Below, in pieces: positions 7,693 through 24,939 of a stretch of DNA of 40,071 nucleotides (positions within the stretch are counted from its first letter, which is position 1; each line of letters opens with the position of its first letter). The stretch is from an uncultured bacterium (lineage in GTDB: Bacteria; Patescibacteriota; Minisyncoccia; Phycocordibacterales; UBA9973): positions 1 through 40,071 of the forward strand of contig CAIYVW010000019.1 of NCBI GenBank assembly GCA_903929735.1. Reading direction: 5' to 3'. The notes under the pieces were generated by a model, which did not search any database, was not told where the DNA came from, and worked only from the letters and a program-made list of their open reading frames with translations. The position numbers and the translations under genes are program-made.

Positions 7693-8598
7693 ATGAATAA
7701 TAAAATTATAGTCATACTAGGTCAAACATCTACAGGAAAGAGTGACTTCGCTGTAGAAATTGCCAAGCTTATAAATGGCGAAATTATTTCAGCTGATTCT
7801 AGACAAGTCTATAAAGGAATGGATCTAGGTACAGGTAAAATTACAAAAAAAGAGATGAAAAATGTAACACACCATTTACTTGATATTATCTCTCCCTCAA
7901 AAGTTTTCTCTGTAAATGATTTCCAGAAGAAAGCTAATAAAAAAATAGAAGAAATAATTAAAAAAGGAAAAGTTCCTATTATATGTGGAGGTACAGGATT
8001 TTACATAGATGCAGTTGTGAATGGTACTATATTCCCAAATGTTCCTCCTAATAAAAAATTAAGAGAAGAACTTTACCTACTCAACGCTATAGCGTTGAGT
8101 AGGTATTTAGAAAAATTAGATCCTGAAAAGGCTAAAATGATAGATAAAAATAATAAAGTTAGACTAGTTAGAGCTATTGAAATTGCTAAAGCTTTAGGAT
8201 CAGTTCCTGAAACTATTAACAACATATCAAAATATCAATTTTTAAAAGTTGGTTTAATATTACCTCCTGAAATATTAAAAGAGAGAATTAAAGTGAGATT
8301 ACTTTCTCGTATTAAAAAAGGAATGATAAATGAAATTAAAAAACTACATGAAAATAAAATATCATGGAAAAGATTGAATTCTTTCGGTCTTGAATATAGA
8401 CATGTATCATTATACCTACAAAATAAAGTCAAAAAAGATGAAATGACAGAAAAGCTCAATACTGACATATGGCACTTCGCCAAACGTCAAAATACATGGT
8501 TTAAACGTGATCTAAACATAAAATGGATAGACCTAAGAAAAAAAAGTGATGTATTAAAGATTAAAAAAGAAATAAAGGAGTTTTTGGTACACGAATAG
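7693..8598 (+). CDS. miaA: tRNA dimethylallyltransferase
   Basis: GQTSTGKSDFAVEIAK P-loop, EIISADSRQVYKGMDLGTGK, HHLLDI motifs. Confidence 0.95.
   Translation: MNNKIIVILGQTSTGKSDFAVEIAKLINGEIISADSRQVYKGMDLGTGKITKKEMKNVTHHLLDIISPSKVFSVNDFQKKANKKIEEIIKKGKVPIICGGTGFYIDAVVNGTIFPNVPPNKKLREELYLLNAIALSRYLEKLDPEKAKMIDKNNKVRLVRAIEIAKALGSVPETINNISKYQFLKVGLILPPEILKERIKVRLLSRIKKGMINEIKKLHENKISWKRLNSFGLEYRHVSLYLQNKVKKDEMTEKLNTDIWHFAKRQNTWFKRDLNIKWIDLRKKSDVLKIKKEIKEFLVHE
8074..8105. repeat. 32-bp perfect palindrome within miaA, in frame
   Basis: TACCTACTCAACGCTATAGCGTTGAGTAGGTA; encodes YLLNAIALSRY. Confidence 0.95.
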
Positions 8599-10203: not shown

Positions 10204-11346
10204 TTAAACTATAACCCTTGGTAATAAAGAACTTATTTTAGTAGTAACTTCATAGTTTATTGAACCCATTTCTTTAGCCAACTCTTCTGTCGAGATTTTA
10301 CTCTTAACTTGAACCCCCAATATAACTACTTCATCATCTGATCTAACATCTTTAATATTTGATACATCAACTACTATCATATTCATAGCAACTCTACCTA
10401 ATATATTAGCCTTTTTCCCTTTTATTAGAACATAACCATTATTTGAAAGAGTTCTTATGAGACCATCAGCGTATCCTTGAGGTATTATAGCTATCTTAGT
10501 CGTTTTTTTAGTTATATAGGTAAGACCATATCCAATAGGATGGTTAGGAGGTAATACTTTAACTTGGGCTATATGTGTTATCCATCTTAATATGGGCTTT
10601 AAATTTATTTTATTTTTATTTAAAAACTCTAGATGACTACTTGGCCATAAACCATAAAGTCCAATACCAAGTCTTACAATAGTATGAAGACTATCACCTT
10701 TATCATAAACAATAATTCCCGAAGTAGCTGATATGTGTGTATTTATTTTTTTAAATCCATTTTCTTTAAAATATTCTAAACACTCATGATAAGTATCTAT
10801 TTGTTTTTGAGCATGTGTAAAATTCATAGTATCTTCTATGTTTGCAAAATGAGAATACACTCCATCCAAAATAATATTATTTAAATTTTTAATTTCTTTA
10901 ATTACAATTTCCACTTGAAATGGCATTATACCTTCTCTTCCTAAATATGAATCTATGGCTAGATGAACCTTCGTTTTAATTTTAAAATCTTTAGCTATAT
11001 GATTAATTTTTAAAAGATGTATTAAATCAAAAGCACAAATTATAGCCTTTAATTTAATGGCTCTCTTTATGCCATCTTCGTTCAAATAGCCAAATATGAG
11101 TATTGGTTTTTTTGTAAATTTTCTTATTCTCTCACACTCTTCAATGCTATCTACTTGGAAATAATCAACATAAGAATTAGCTATTTTAACTACTTCTATA
11201 TCACCATGACCATAAGCATTTGCTTTAACAACTGCCGCTATTTTAGTTTTAGAACCAACTAAAGATCGGAATTGTTTAATATTATTTATTAGATTCTCTC
11301 TAGAAATCTCTATGTATGAAAGTGATTTTTCTATCTTATTTATCAT
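10204..11346 (-). CDS. alr: Alanine racemase
   Basis: KIAAVVKANAYGHG PLP-lysine motif, RLGIGLYG, GRVAMNMIVVDVS. Confidence 0.95.
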   Translation of the reverse strand: MINKIEKSLSYIEISRENLINNIKQFRSLVGSKTKIAAVVKANAYGHGDIEVVKIANSYVDYFQVDSIEECERIRKFTKKPILIFGYLNEDGIKRAIKLKAIICAFDLIHLLKINHIAKDFKIKTKVHLAIDSYLGREGIMPFQVEIVIKEIKNLNNIILDGVYSHFANIEDTMNFTHAQKQIDTYHECLEYFKENGFKKINTHISATSGIIVYDKGDSLHTIVRLGIGLYGLWPSSHLEFLNKNKINLKPILRWITHIAQVKVLPPNHPIGYGLTYITKKTTKIAIIPQGYADGLIRTLSNNGYVLIKGKKANILGRVAMNMIVVDVSNIKDVRSDDEVVILGVQVKSKISTEELAKEMGSINYEVTTKISSLLPRVIV

Positions 11347-11567: not shown

Positions 11568-12602
11568 TTATAATATTTCTGGCTCTTGTTGTAGTTCTAT
11601 ATCAAACTTGTCTTTTACAATTTTTATTATTTCATTTCGAGTTTTTATAATATCTTCAAAAGTAGCATTTGCAGTATTTACTAATACTAGAGCATTCTTA
11701 TCATATACAGAAACAGAGCCAAAAGACTTACCTTTCAATCCTGAATTTTCTATAAGCCAACCAGCAGGAACTTTTATATGATTTTCATCTACCGGGAAAA
11801 ATTTAGCCTCTGGAAAATCTATTTTTATTTTGTCAGCTACAGCATTTAAAACTATTGGGTTTTTGAAAAATGAACCTGCATTTGGAGAGACTCTCGGATC
11901 AGGGAGCTTTTCTTTTCGTATATATATAATAGCGTCTCGAATCTGTGAAAGAGTTGGACTAACTATTTCCATATCTTCAAAATATTTTGCAACGCCAGGA
12001 TATTTAGGAATCGTAGGTAGAGATTTATTTAATCTATAAGTTACCGCCGTTATTATATATCTACCCTTGGCTTCATTTTTAAAAATACTATCCCGATATC
12101 CAAATTTACAATCTTTATTATATATCTTGGAAAATTCTCTTTTTTCTATATCAAAAACTTCTACTTCTTGTATAGTATCTTTTACTTCTGATCCATAAGC
12201 ACCAATATTCTGTACCGGACTAGCTCCTACTGTGCCAGGAATAAAAGACAGAGCTTCAATACCTACTAGATTCATATTTACAGTTTTACGGACAAAATTA
12301 TCCCAATTCTCACCAGCACCGACTTTGATATCAATATATTCAGATGTTTCATTAATAATTTCAAAACTTTTAATTTCGATCTTGAGAGTAATCACTTTTA
12401 AAACACCATCCGAAAAAACAATATTTGAACCTCCTCCTAATACAAAAATCGGTATATTTTTATACTTTCTTTCATCATACGCTATAGCGTAAAACGATGG
12501 AAGTTCTTCTTTATTAGAAATAACTGCAAAATATCGAAATTGCCCTCCTATTTTGAGAGTTGAATAATCCTTGATATCCATATATTCCTCTATCTTTATC
12601 AT
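11568..12602 (-). CDS. murB: UDP-N-acetylenolpyruvoylglucosamine reductase
   Basis: IPIFVLGGGSNIVFSD, GIEALSFIPGTVGASPVQNIGAYGSEV, GYRDSIFK, SPNAGSFFKNP. Confidence 0.95.
   Translation of the reverse strand: MIKIEEYMDIKDYSTLKIGGQFRYFAVISNKEELPSFYAIAYDERKYKNIPIFVLGGGSNIVFSDGVLKVITLKIEIKSFEIINETSEYIDIKVGAGENWDNFVRKTVNMNLVGIEALSFIPGTVGASPVQNIGAYGSEVKDTIQEVEVFDIEKREFSKIYNKDCKFGYRDSIFKNEAKGRYIITAVTYRLNKSLPTIPKYPGVAKYFEDMEIVSPTLSQIRDAIIYIRKEKLPDPRVSPNAGSFFKNPIVLNAVADKIKIDFPEAKFFPVDENHIKVPAGWLIENSGLKGKSFGSVSVYDKNALVLVNTANATFEDIIKTRNEIIKIVKDKFDIELQQEPEIL
12478..12491. repeat. 14-bp perfect palindrome within murB (TACGCTATAGCGTA)
   Basis: Shares the 12-bp core ACGCTATAGCGT with the miaA palindrome; flanked by CATCa...aaacGATG. 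Confidence 0.8.
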
Positions 12603-12609
12603 ATTGCAA

Positions 12610-12629
12610 TTATATCATATATGATATAA
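12610..12629. promoter_or_regulatory. 20-bp perfect palindrome in murB/murA divergent intergenic region; candidate operator
   Basis: TTATATCATATATGATATAA; lies between murB start (12602) and HTH-murA start (12680). Confidence 0.5.
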
Positions 12630-12679
12630 AATAGTAAATAGAATTATTAACAATTATTATCAGATAATAAAATAAATGT

Positions 12680-14194
12680 ATGAAGAAAGAAACAGAACAG
12701 CAAAAAATTGGGCTATTTATAAAAGAATTAAGAGAAAGAAAATTAATGACTCAAGATGAGTTTGCTAAAGCTTTAGAAACTTCACAAAGTGCTGTTGCTA
12801 GAATGGAAAAAGGAGAACAAAATTTTAGCACTGAAATATTAGGGAAAATTAGTGAAGTATTAAATCAGCAGATAGTCTCCTTAGCTAATTCATCAATAGA
12901 TTTTCAAATCACAGGAGGTAAAAAACTTCACGGAAGTATAAATACAAACTTTTCCAAAAATGGTGCTGTCGGTCTACTCTGTGCTTCCTTATTAAATCGT
13001 GGTAAAACTACTCTTCATGGTATTGCTCGTATTGAAGAAGTCTACAGAGTAATAGAGATACTTGAGAGCATTGGTGTATCTGTTAAATGGATAGATAATA
13101 ATTCTGTCTTAATAATTCCTCCTACTAAATTTAGCTTAGAAAAGATAAATATTGAATCTGCTATTAAGACACGCTCTGTCATTATGCTCATAGGACCTCT
13201 TATACACTTACTACCTTCTTTCTCTATCCCCCATGCTTCTGGCTGCAAGTTAGGAAAACGCACAATTTCAGCACACACTTATGCTCTTGAAGACTTAGGG
13301 GTAAAGATAAAAACCACAAATACTGAATATAAAATTGAAAGTAAAAAATTAAGAGGAGCAAATATAGTAATGTATGAAGCTGGAGATACTGCTTGCGAGA
13401 ATATTCTTACTGCTGTATCAAAAATAAATGGTACTTCTACTATCAGATTCGCTAGTGCAAATTATATGGTACAAGAGATATGCTTCTTCTTAGAAAAATT
13501 AGGAGTTAAAATAGAAGGAATAGGAACTTCTACTCTAATTGTTCATGGAATAAAAGATATTAATACGGATATCGAATACACAAATAGCGAAGACCCTATT
13601 GAATCAATGATGTTTATATCCGCTGCTATTGCAACTGATTCAGAACTCAAAATACTACGCTGTCCAATAGATTTTCTTTCTCTTGAGCTTGAGAAGTTAA
13701 AAAGAATGGGGTTAAAATATAAAATAACTAAACAATATAAATCATATAATAAAAGAACAAATCTAGTAGACCTACATATATTCTCTTCTAAATTAAAAGC
13801 CTTAGAAGATAAAATACATGCCACTCCTTATCCAGGTATCAATATGGATAATCTCCCCTTCTTTGTTCCTATAGCAATCAAAGCCAAGGGCCAAACTATG
13901 ATACATGACTGGGTTTACGAGAATAGAGCTATATATTTCACAGAATTAAATAGACTAGGAGCAAGTGTTACATTAGCTGATCCTCATAGAGTATATATAC
14001 AAGGTGGTACTCCTCTAAAGGCAGCACAAGTTGTATGCCCTCCTGCTCTAAGACCTTCAATGATTATACTTATTGGCATGCTAGGATCTAATGGTACATC
14101 TATACTTAGAAATGTTTATATGATAAATCGTGGATATGAAGAAATAGCTGAAAGGTTAAATTCTATTGGAGCAGATATTAAAATACTAAAATAG
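12680..14194 (+). CDS. murA: XRE-type HTH domain fused to UDP-N-acetylglucosamine 1-carboxyvinyltransferase (MurA)
   Basis: N-term IGLFIKELRERKLMTQDEFAKALETSQSAVARMEKGEQ (HTH_3), then EPSP-synthase-fold MurA with KNGAVGLLCASLL, SGCKLGKRTISAHTYALEDLG (catalytic Cys loop), RPSMIILIGMLG. Confidence 0.92.
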   Translation: MKKETEQQKIGLFIKELRERKLMTQDEFAKALETSQSAVARMEKGEQNFSTEILGKISEVLNQQIVSLANSSIDFQITGGKKLHGSINTNFSKNGAVGLLCASLLNRGKTTLHGIARIEEVYRVIEILESIGVSVKWIDNNSVLIIPPTKFSLEKINIESAIKTRSVIMLIGPLIHLLPSFSIPHASGCKLGKRTISAHTYALEDLGVKIKTTNTEYKIESKKLRGANIVMYEAGDTACENILTAVSKINGTSTIRFASANYMVQEICFFLEKLGVKIEGIGTSTLIVHGIKDINTDIEYTNSEDPIESMMFISAAIATDSELKILRCPIDFLSLELEKLKRMGLKYKITKQYKSYNKRTNLVDLHIFSSKLKALEDKIHATPYPGINMDNLPFFVPIAIKAKGQTMIHDWVYENRAIYFTELNRLGASVTLADPHRVYIQGGTPLKAAQVVCPPALRPSMIILIGMLGSNGTSILRNVYMINRGYEEIAERLNSIGADIKILK

Positions 14195-18868: not shown

Positions 18869-19486
18869 ATGAAAATAATTTTAGAAATGTCGCTTATCGA
18901 CTGGTTAATTTTCTGACTGGCCATAGGTGCACACGTGCCTTTAGTTCTAGGAACTTTTAGGCAAAAAAATGACAGAAGTCAAACTTTTGTTACATGGATA
19001 TTATATTTCTCTCTAGACATTATTACTTTTTTTTCTGCCATAGAAACAGAAAAAGATAGTAGTTTTGTGATACTATTTGGTTTTTCAGTTGGTTCATTTA
19101 TCATGTCTCTGATTCTCTTCTACCAGAAAAAAATTAAATGGACAAAACTAGAAACTGTAATAATATCTTTAGTGATAATTTGTATCTATTTATTCAAAAG
19201 TAGTGGCCCTTACTGGGCGTTAATATTTGGGATAATCTCAGAAAGTATAATTGGAGTTTACCTAATAATTCAAACATGGCAGAGGCCTAAAGTTAAATAT
19301 AACTTTACAGCTTATATCATTTTTTTAATTGTTAGCATACTAGCAACTATAAATGCTGAAGACTGGAGCATACCGAAAGTTGGGTATCCACTCTGTGAGA
19401 CAATTCTAAATATAATTATCATTATGCCGCTGATTAAAAAATGGCGAAGAAAAAGAATTAAAACTAAAAAATTAAAAATGGCTTAA
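18869..19486 (+). CDS. Small multi-pass membrane protein; conceptual ORF from ATG 18869 interrupted by in-frame TGA at 18914-18916 (ORF-track version begins at GTG 18935)
   Basis: MKIILEMSLIDWLIF*LAIGAHVPLVLGTFRQKNDRSQTFVTW...; promoter-like TTGACA-17-TAAAGT upstream of the ATG. Confidence 0.55.
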
Positions 19487-19499
19487 TTAAGCCATTTTT
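19474..19499. terminator. 26-bp perfect palindrome acting as likely bidirectional terminator and encoding both C-termini
   Basis: AAAAATGGCTTAATTAAGCCATTTTT; both convergent CDSs end -KMA-TAA within it. Confidence 0.85.
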
Positions 19500-24879: not shown

Positions 24880-24939
24880 GAATTAAAAAACAGTATAGGA
24901 TTTATGCATATGCATAAATCCTATACTGTTTTTTAATTC
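24880..24939. repeat. 60-bp perfect palindrome between convergent TMEM175 gene and gpsA
   Basis: GAATTAAAAAACAGTATAGGATTTATGCAT|ATGCATAAATCCTATACTGTTTTTTAATTC. Confidence 0.95.

Follow-up and report, generated by a model that had tools for sequence, protein, structure and literature searches.

Can an enzyme that carries its own DNA-binding domain serve as the switch of its own gene? The question is raised by a locus in a window of 40,071 nucleotides (the whole stretch of DNA that was analysed), where MurA, the enzyme that starts cell-wall synthesis, is joined to a helix-turn-helix (HTH) domain. MurA proteins with a DNA-binding domain occur in many ultra-small Patescibacteria. The host genome (763 kb in 52 contigs, completeness 100) has Ca. 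Nomurabacteria/Paceibacterota MAGs as its nearest named relatives, and HTH-MurA is its sole EPSP-family enzyme. In a comparison of related sequences, the built-in domain and one short palindrome before murA evolve in step, and this points strongly to the enzyme being its own genetic switch as well. The gene and its parts are positioned as follows:

12680-14194, plus strand: HTH-MurA fusion gene, an open reading frame of 504 amino acids (Pfam, NCBIfam)
12680-12886, plus strand: N-terminal XRE/HTH_3 domain, residues 1-69 (Pfam HTH_3, AF2 helices)
12779-12808, plus strand: recognition helix and its N-cap, residues 34-43, TSQSAVARME (S35 codon at 12782-12784)
12863-12895, plus strand: linker between the HTH and MurA domains, residues 62-72
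12902-14185, plus strand: MurA (EPSP synthase-fold) catalytic domain, residues 75-502 (profile and fold matches)
13244-13246, plus strand: catalytic Cys189, equivalent to E. coli C115

The fusion of an XRE HTH to the N-terminus of MurA, claimed in an earlier note on this DNA, was confirmed by Pfam matches to HTH_3 (residues 14-62; 47.5 bits versus a cut-off of 23) and EPSP_synthase (PF00275; residues 78-493) in the one open reading frame. A DNA-binding domain and an enzyme thus share a single chain, as in trigger enzymes. In the AF2 model (mean pLDDT 87), helices of the HTH part span residues 6-20, 25-32, 36-43, and 51-61, so that profile score and helix pattern both correspond to the XRE/HTH_3 family; the closest solved structures are XRE repressors and antitoxins. 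The MurA part of the model resembles MurA crystal structures (TM ca. 0.85-0.90 over the target). Linker residues 67-70 have a pLDDT below 50, and the linker is probably flexible.

The catalytic part was assigned to the MurA type by PF00275, by a match to the PDB fold, and by the NCBIfam MurA subfamily PRK09369 (313 versus a cut-off of 297), while the stricter equivalog TIGR01072 was not reached (304 versus 392.7). The catalytic cysteine is retained, as the earlier note had stated: this residue (C115) and K22, N23, R91, R120, D305, R331, L370, R371, and R397 (E. coli MurA numbering) are invariant in 143/143 HTH-MurA proteins, the exceptions among catalytic residues being D369, which is replaced by A, and R232, which is replaced by P. 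Canonical E. coli MurA (PDB 1UAE) has the same fold and most of the same active site but no HTH, and the HTH-MurA clade differs from it by R232P, D369A, K48E, and W95M. The R232P and D369A replacements are a paired change, fixed throughout this MurA clade in HTH-bearing and HTH-less members alike. They place catalysis by HTH-MurA in some doubt and, with the score below the TIGR01072 cut-off, would be expected of a regulator that no longer has enzymatic activity. We consider such a loss very unlikely, since the cysteine and the remaining catalytic residues are invariant, HTH-less members of the clade have the same two replacements, murB is kept adjacent in the window's genus, and almost all genomes checked have no EPSP-family enzyme besides HTH-MurA. 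Among 61 relatives, each genome with a match had a single such enzyme, except for one that had a small extra fragment.

murA and murB are divergent, and the spacer between them is 77 bp long. The following features were placed in and around it:

10204-11346, minus strand: alr (alanine racemase), downstream of murB (open reading frame, NCBIfam)
11568-12602, minus strand: murB (open reading frame, Pfam, NCBIfam)
12604-12632, plus strand: predicted murA promoter, with TTGCAA at 12604-12609, a 17-bp spacer, and TAAAAT at 12627-12632
12609-12617, minus strand: predicted murB extended -10 TGATATAAT, in the other palindrome arm
12610-12629, no strand: 20-bp perfect palindrome TTATATCATATATGATATAA, the predicted HTH-MurA operator, with a 16-bp core at 12612-12627
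12654-12670, no strand: second palindrome TTATTATCAGATAATAA, 17 bp, judged to lie outside the system

The perfect 20-bp palindrome that the earlier note had reported in this spacer is present, and it appears to fill the 17-bp spacer of the murA promoter. Transcription of murB would be leaderless, with its extended -10 located 6 nt from the murB ATG; alr and murB are possibly carried on one transcript. A motif flanking the operator is conserved in the window's genus. The distance from the murB ATG to the site is 6-11 bp in most murB-adjacent loci, and that from the site to the murA start codon is most often 9-13 bp among relatives. In simulated 77-bp spacers of matching composition, a 20-bp even palindrome arose in 0.7% and a 17-bp odd palindrome in 3.5% of cases. 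At a chance rate of ca. 0.7%, the palindrome in the window alone is only suggestive, and conservation decides. The second palindrome, to which the earlier note had also drawn attention, was rejected as an operator: it was conserved in 0 of 42 other loci, including that of a 94%-identical relative. The 16-bp core has a single copy in its own genome; the scan revealed no further copies at one mismatch or fewer, two-mismatch sites at background level, and no regulon site beyond murA/murB. Other perfect palindromes of the window, at 8074-8105 (32 bp), 19474-19499 (26 bp), and 24880-24939 (60 bp, unusually long), are probably bidirectional terminators.

HTH-murA was traced through relatives, and a 300-bp stretch before each gene was scored for the general pattern ATMNCAYATRTGNKAT, with up to two mismatches allowed and dinucleotide-model shuffles as controls. 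The pattern was found at 136/140 HTH-murA genes versus 3/52 murA genes in that clade that lack the HTH (2-3% in shuffles), and the strict pattern ATAKCAYATRTGMTAT at 133/140 versus 2/52 (0.2-0.5% in shuffles). The site was absent upstream of all 9 distant HTH-less MurA genes scored. HTH-murA genes from elsewhere in the phylum, which are 44-62% identical, had the site in 29/40 cases. The palindrome is thus conserved beside HTH-murA, and the claim of the earlier note withstood the phylogenetic footprinting that had been proposed as its check. We conclude, by comparison alone, that the XRE/HTH_3 domain has a cognate palindromic operator at its own gene, and that both the fusion and this operator are genuine, with a conservation that extends far outside the window's genus.

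The exceptions were as follows. Locus L006 lies on a short contig, with unrelated sequence upstream of murA; L210 has a degenerate recognition helix; L211 carries HTH-murA without a site within 300 bp, murA being now directly 3' of another gene; and L262 has a variant palindrome, ATACCTTATTTGGTAT. Perfect sites were found at L169 and L171 despite an HTH-less murA, and the genera of these two contain relatives with the HTH or with a decaying site. Genome G145 has two HTH-MurA genes (L113 at C6:16216-17700 and L106 at C9:4388-5872), each with its own site. The contigs of L210, L220, and L238 carry a Nomurabacteria-type MurA under Prolixibacteraceae, delta proteobacterium, and Burkholderiales labels, and are probably mislabelled or contaminated MAGs.

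A tree was built from the MurA catalytic domain with the HTH left out (195 rows), and presence of the HTH switches ca. 30 times along it. Supported independent pairs in which one member has the HTH and the other lacks it numbered 17; the site was concordant in ca. 15 of them and opposed in 0 (sign test, p ~6e-5). After HTH loss in the genus to which L169 belongs, the left arm decays but the right half TGATATAAT, i.e. the -10 box, is retained, and the operator is therefore separable from the promoter. This decay series, together with the symmetry of the arms, contradicts a reading in which the palindrome is a promoter feature only, formed by back-to-back TGATATAAT extended -10 boxes with no repressor bound. 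The murA -10 is overlapped by the right arm and the murB -10 by the left arm, and the persistence of the -10 arm after HTH loss also agrees with this reading. However, most loci of the order keep both arms despite lacking a divergent murB, and the arms change jointly to other letters (ATAGCA..TGCTAT, ATCTCA..TGAGAT); at L039 and L164, an HTH-less murA with a divergent murB has no palindrome. We therefore regard a promoter-only palindrome as extremely improbable.

The operator arms vary symmetrically (both ATATCA, both ATAGCA, or both ATCTCA), and mixtures also occur. S35 pairs with ATATCA arms, T35 with ATAGCA, and S38/P40 with ATCTCA. Operator position 4 shares more mutual information with residue 35 than with any other HTH column (S-T 77, T-G 28, S-G 2, T-T 0); this residue opens the recognition helix, at the position of Thr27 of 434 repressor in our own alignment. 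Residues 38/40 pair with operator position 3, and S38/P40 helices accompany ATCTCA in both arms in 10/11 cases. After correction for ancestry, 3 supported pairs with few independent transitions were left for the residue-35 code, which is not significant alone; the case for such a specificity code is strong but not proven. No site was present at L210, L309, and L323, whose recognition helices are degenerate, and an extra site in genome G284 is of the ATAGCA type, in line with that genome's own TTQS helix and own murA site.

The perfect sites at HTH-less L169 and L171 could be taken to mean that a different transcription factor occupies the palindrome and that the head of HTH-MurA has another role, e.g. 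protein-protein contact. With HTH and site lost together, recognition helix and operator paired, and the site nearly unique to murA in most genomes, such a factor is highly improbable. Co-loss on the tree, arm symmetry, the recognition-helix/operator pairing, and the decay series thus pair the HTH itself with the palindrome. Comparison among relatives establishes that the fusion exists, that it persists as the sole MurA, and that site and HTH are tightly coupled.

MurA proteins are usually described as monomers, so a dimer must come from the HTH or the DNA. We propose that HTH-MurA would bind as a dimer, its XRE head reading ATATCAYATRTGATAT. In the predicted murA promoter, this palindrome covers the spacer and the -10 region, and in the window it also covers the -10 of the divergent murB. 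With a dimer bound there, both promoters would be blocked, which argues for repression. When plentiful, HTH-MurA would occupy the site and shut off murA (and murB-alr where divergent), so that the committed step of peptidoglycan synthesis would be under negative feedback. A single-chain enzyme-repressor that autoregulates via its own operator is the best explanation and, in our judgment, a highly probable one; it includes the inferences that HTH-MurA binds directly, dimerises, represses rather than activates, and is an active enzyme.

The earlier note had inferred that the enzyme responds to the state of its substrate. In this version the repressor could in addition be gated by ligand: UDP-GlcNAc/PEP or the product would close the MurA lobes and alter DNA binding, so that transcription follows flux. 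The HTH precedes, at the N-terminus, a catalytic domain that is intact and has an invariant active-site set; two known analogues, BirA (PMC4016012) and PutA (PMC6978683), each combine enzyme and repressor in one protein. However, gated and ungated repression are not separated by any comparative signal, and the HTH was lost repeatedly while the MurA domain continued, which argues against a strong structural dependence. Given a linker that is modelled at low confidence and probably flexible, concentration-dependent autorepression without gating appears at least as likely, and we put ligand gating forward tentatively. It is doubtful that HTH-MurA is a flux-sensing cell-wall homeostat, in which ligand occupancy would directly govern how strongly murA and murB-alr are transcribed and, in certain lineages, also murC-type operons and the gene of a small membrane protein.

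PutA has a ribbon-helix-helix head on a flavoenzyme, unlike HTH-MurA, and its targets are a divergent pair, as murA/murB are here. PutA of enteric bacteria is a trigger enzyme that represses its own put genes (PMC6978683), as is proposed for HTH-MurA, but it belongs to a catabolic pathway and is redox/membrane-gated. The group II BPL BirA, like HTH-MurA, has an N-terminal HTH on an essential metabolic enzyme, which occurs with or without this head depending on lineage, and represses its pathway genes at palindromic operators (PMC4016012). BirA differs in having a winged HTH and a biotin ligase fold, with no homology to HTH-MurA, and in acting on the biotin pathway, not the cell wall. HTH-MurA is not a group II BPL, its catalytic domain being MurA by Pfam, but would work like one. 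In B. subtilis, operator binding by BirA required both biotin and ATP (PMC4016012); no such gate is known for HTH-MurA. XRE-family autorepressors share the HTH_3 fold and bind as dimers to a palindrome that precedes the gene encoding them (PMC12565409), but a MurA fusion is not described there. HTH-MurA thus appears to be kin in kind to the trigger enzymes BirA and PutA and, as far as the literature was searched, a new unrelated fusion; no report of it was found in that literature, which was mostly outside subscription journals. If the proposed mechanism is true, HTH-MurA would be, within the same literature, the first committing peptidoglycan enzyme (the fosfomycin target) to act as its pathway's transcription factor. 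It is widespread across Patescibacteria, where gene regulation is little known, and it brings an evolving protein-DNA specificity code and natural knockouts (HTH losses), which make it directly testable. For Saccharibacteria, a genetic system is available (PMC10633639).

At most HTH-murA loci of the order no murB is adjacent, yet the site persists, and the constant target is therefore murA itself. Regulation of murB, as claimed in the earlier note, is plausible in the window, where a single symmetric site spans the -10 boxes of the two divergent genes; it is, however, confined to certain lineages, and was rejected as the main purpose. In 40 HTH-MurA genomes, the strict site had 40 copies versus 1 for a reversed control pattern, and 12 of the 40 were outside the murA promoter. 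Several of these extra sites, in other genera, have an FtsX-like ABC transporter on one side and a Mur-ligase (murC/mpl-type) operon on the other: at L067 (2983-2998) the site precedes a Mur ligase together with GNAT and glutamate racemase, and at L061 (3019-3034) and L266 (4397-4412) a beta-lactamase-fold protein and a Mur ligase. Most of the remaining ones precede a conserved small membrane protein of ca. 57-75 residues, near tgt or ftsEX. Its genes, each with an operator copy upstream, include:

L062, 2986-3210: small membrane protein gene
L264, 4035-4256, minus strand: small membrane protein gene
L064, 3498-3683: small membrane protein gene
L269, 4305-4514: small membrane protein gene
L271, 4648-4815: small membrane protein gene
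L272, 4817-5017: small membrane protein gene

The protein matched no Pfam family. Its gene has a leader of 150-300 nt, with a G-rich/C-rich stem and inner hairpins just 5' of the ATG and no Rfam match at that position; this leader may be an undescribed structured RNA.

Loss of the switch follows a recurrent arrangement. In 25/52 cases, HTH-less murA lies 2-52 nt behind tRNA-Leu(CAA) and the operator is gone, versus 3/139 HTH-murA genes in this position. At intermediate loci, the HTH and operator are kept in a gap of ca. 37-104 nt after the tRNA gene. The simplest story would be that murA exchanged its promoter for read-through from tRNA-Leu(CAA), upon which the HTH became dispensable. The murA loci of the tRNA-Leu(CAA) set are L080, L082, L083, L224, L230, L231, L253, and L256-L260.
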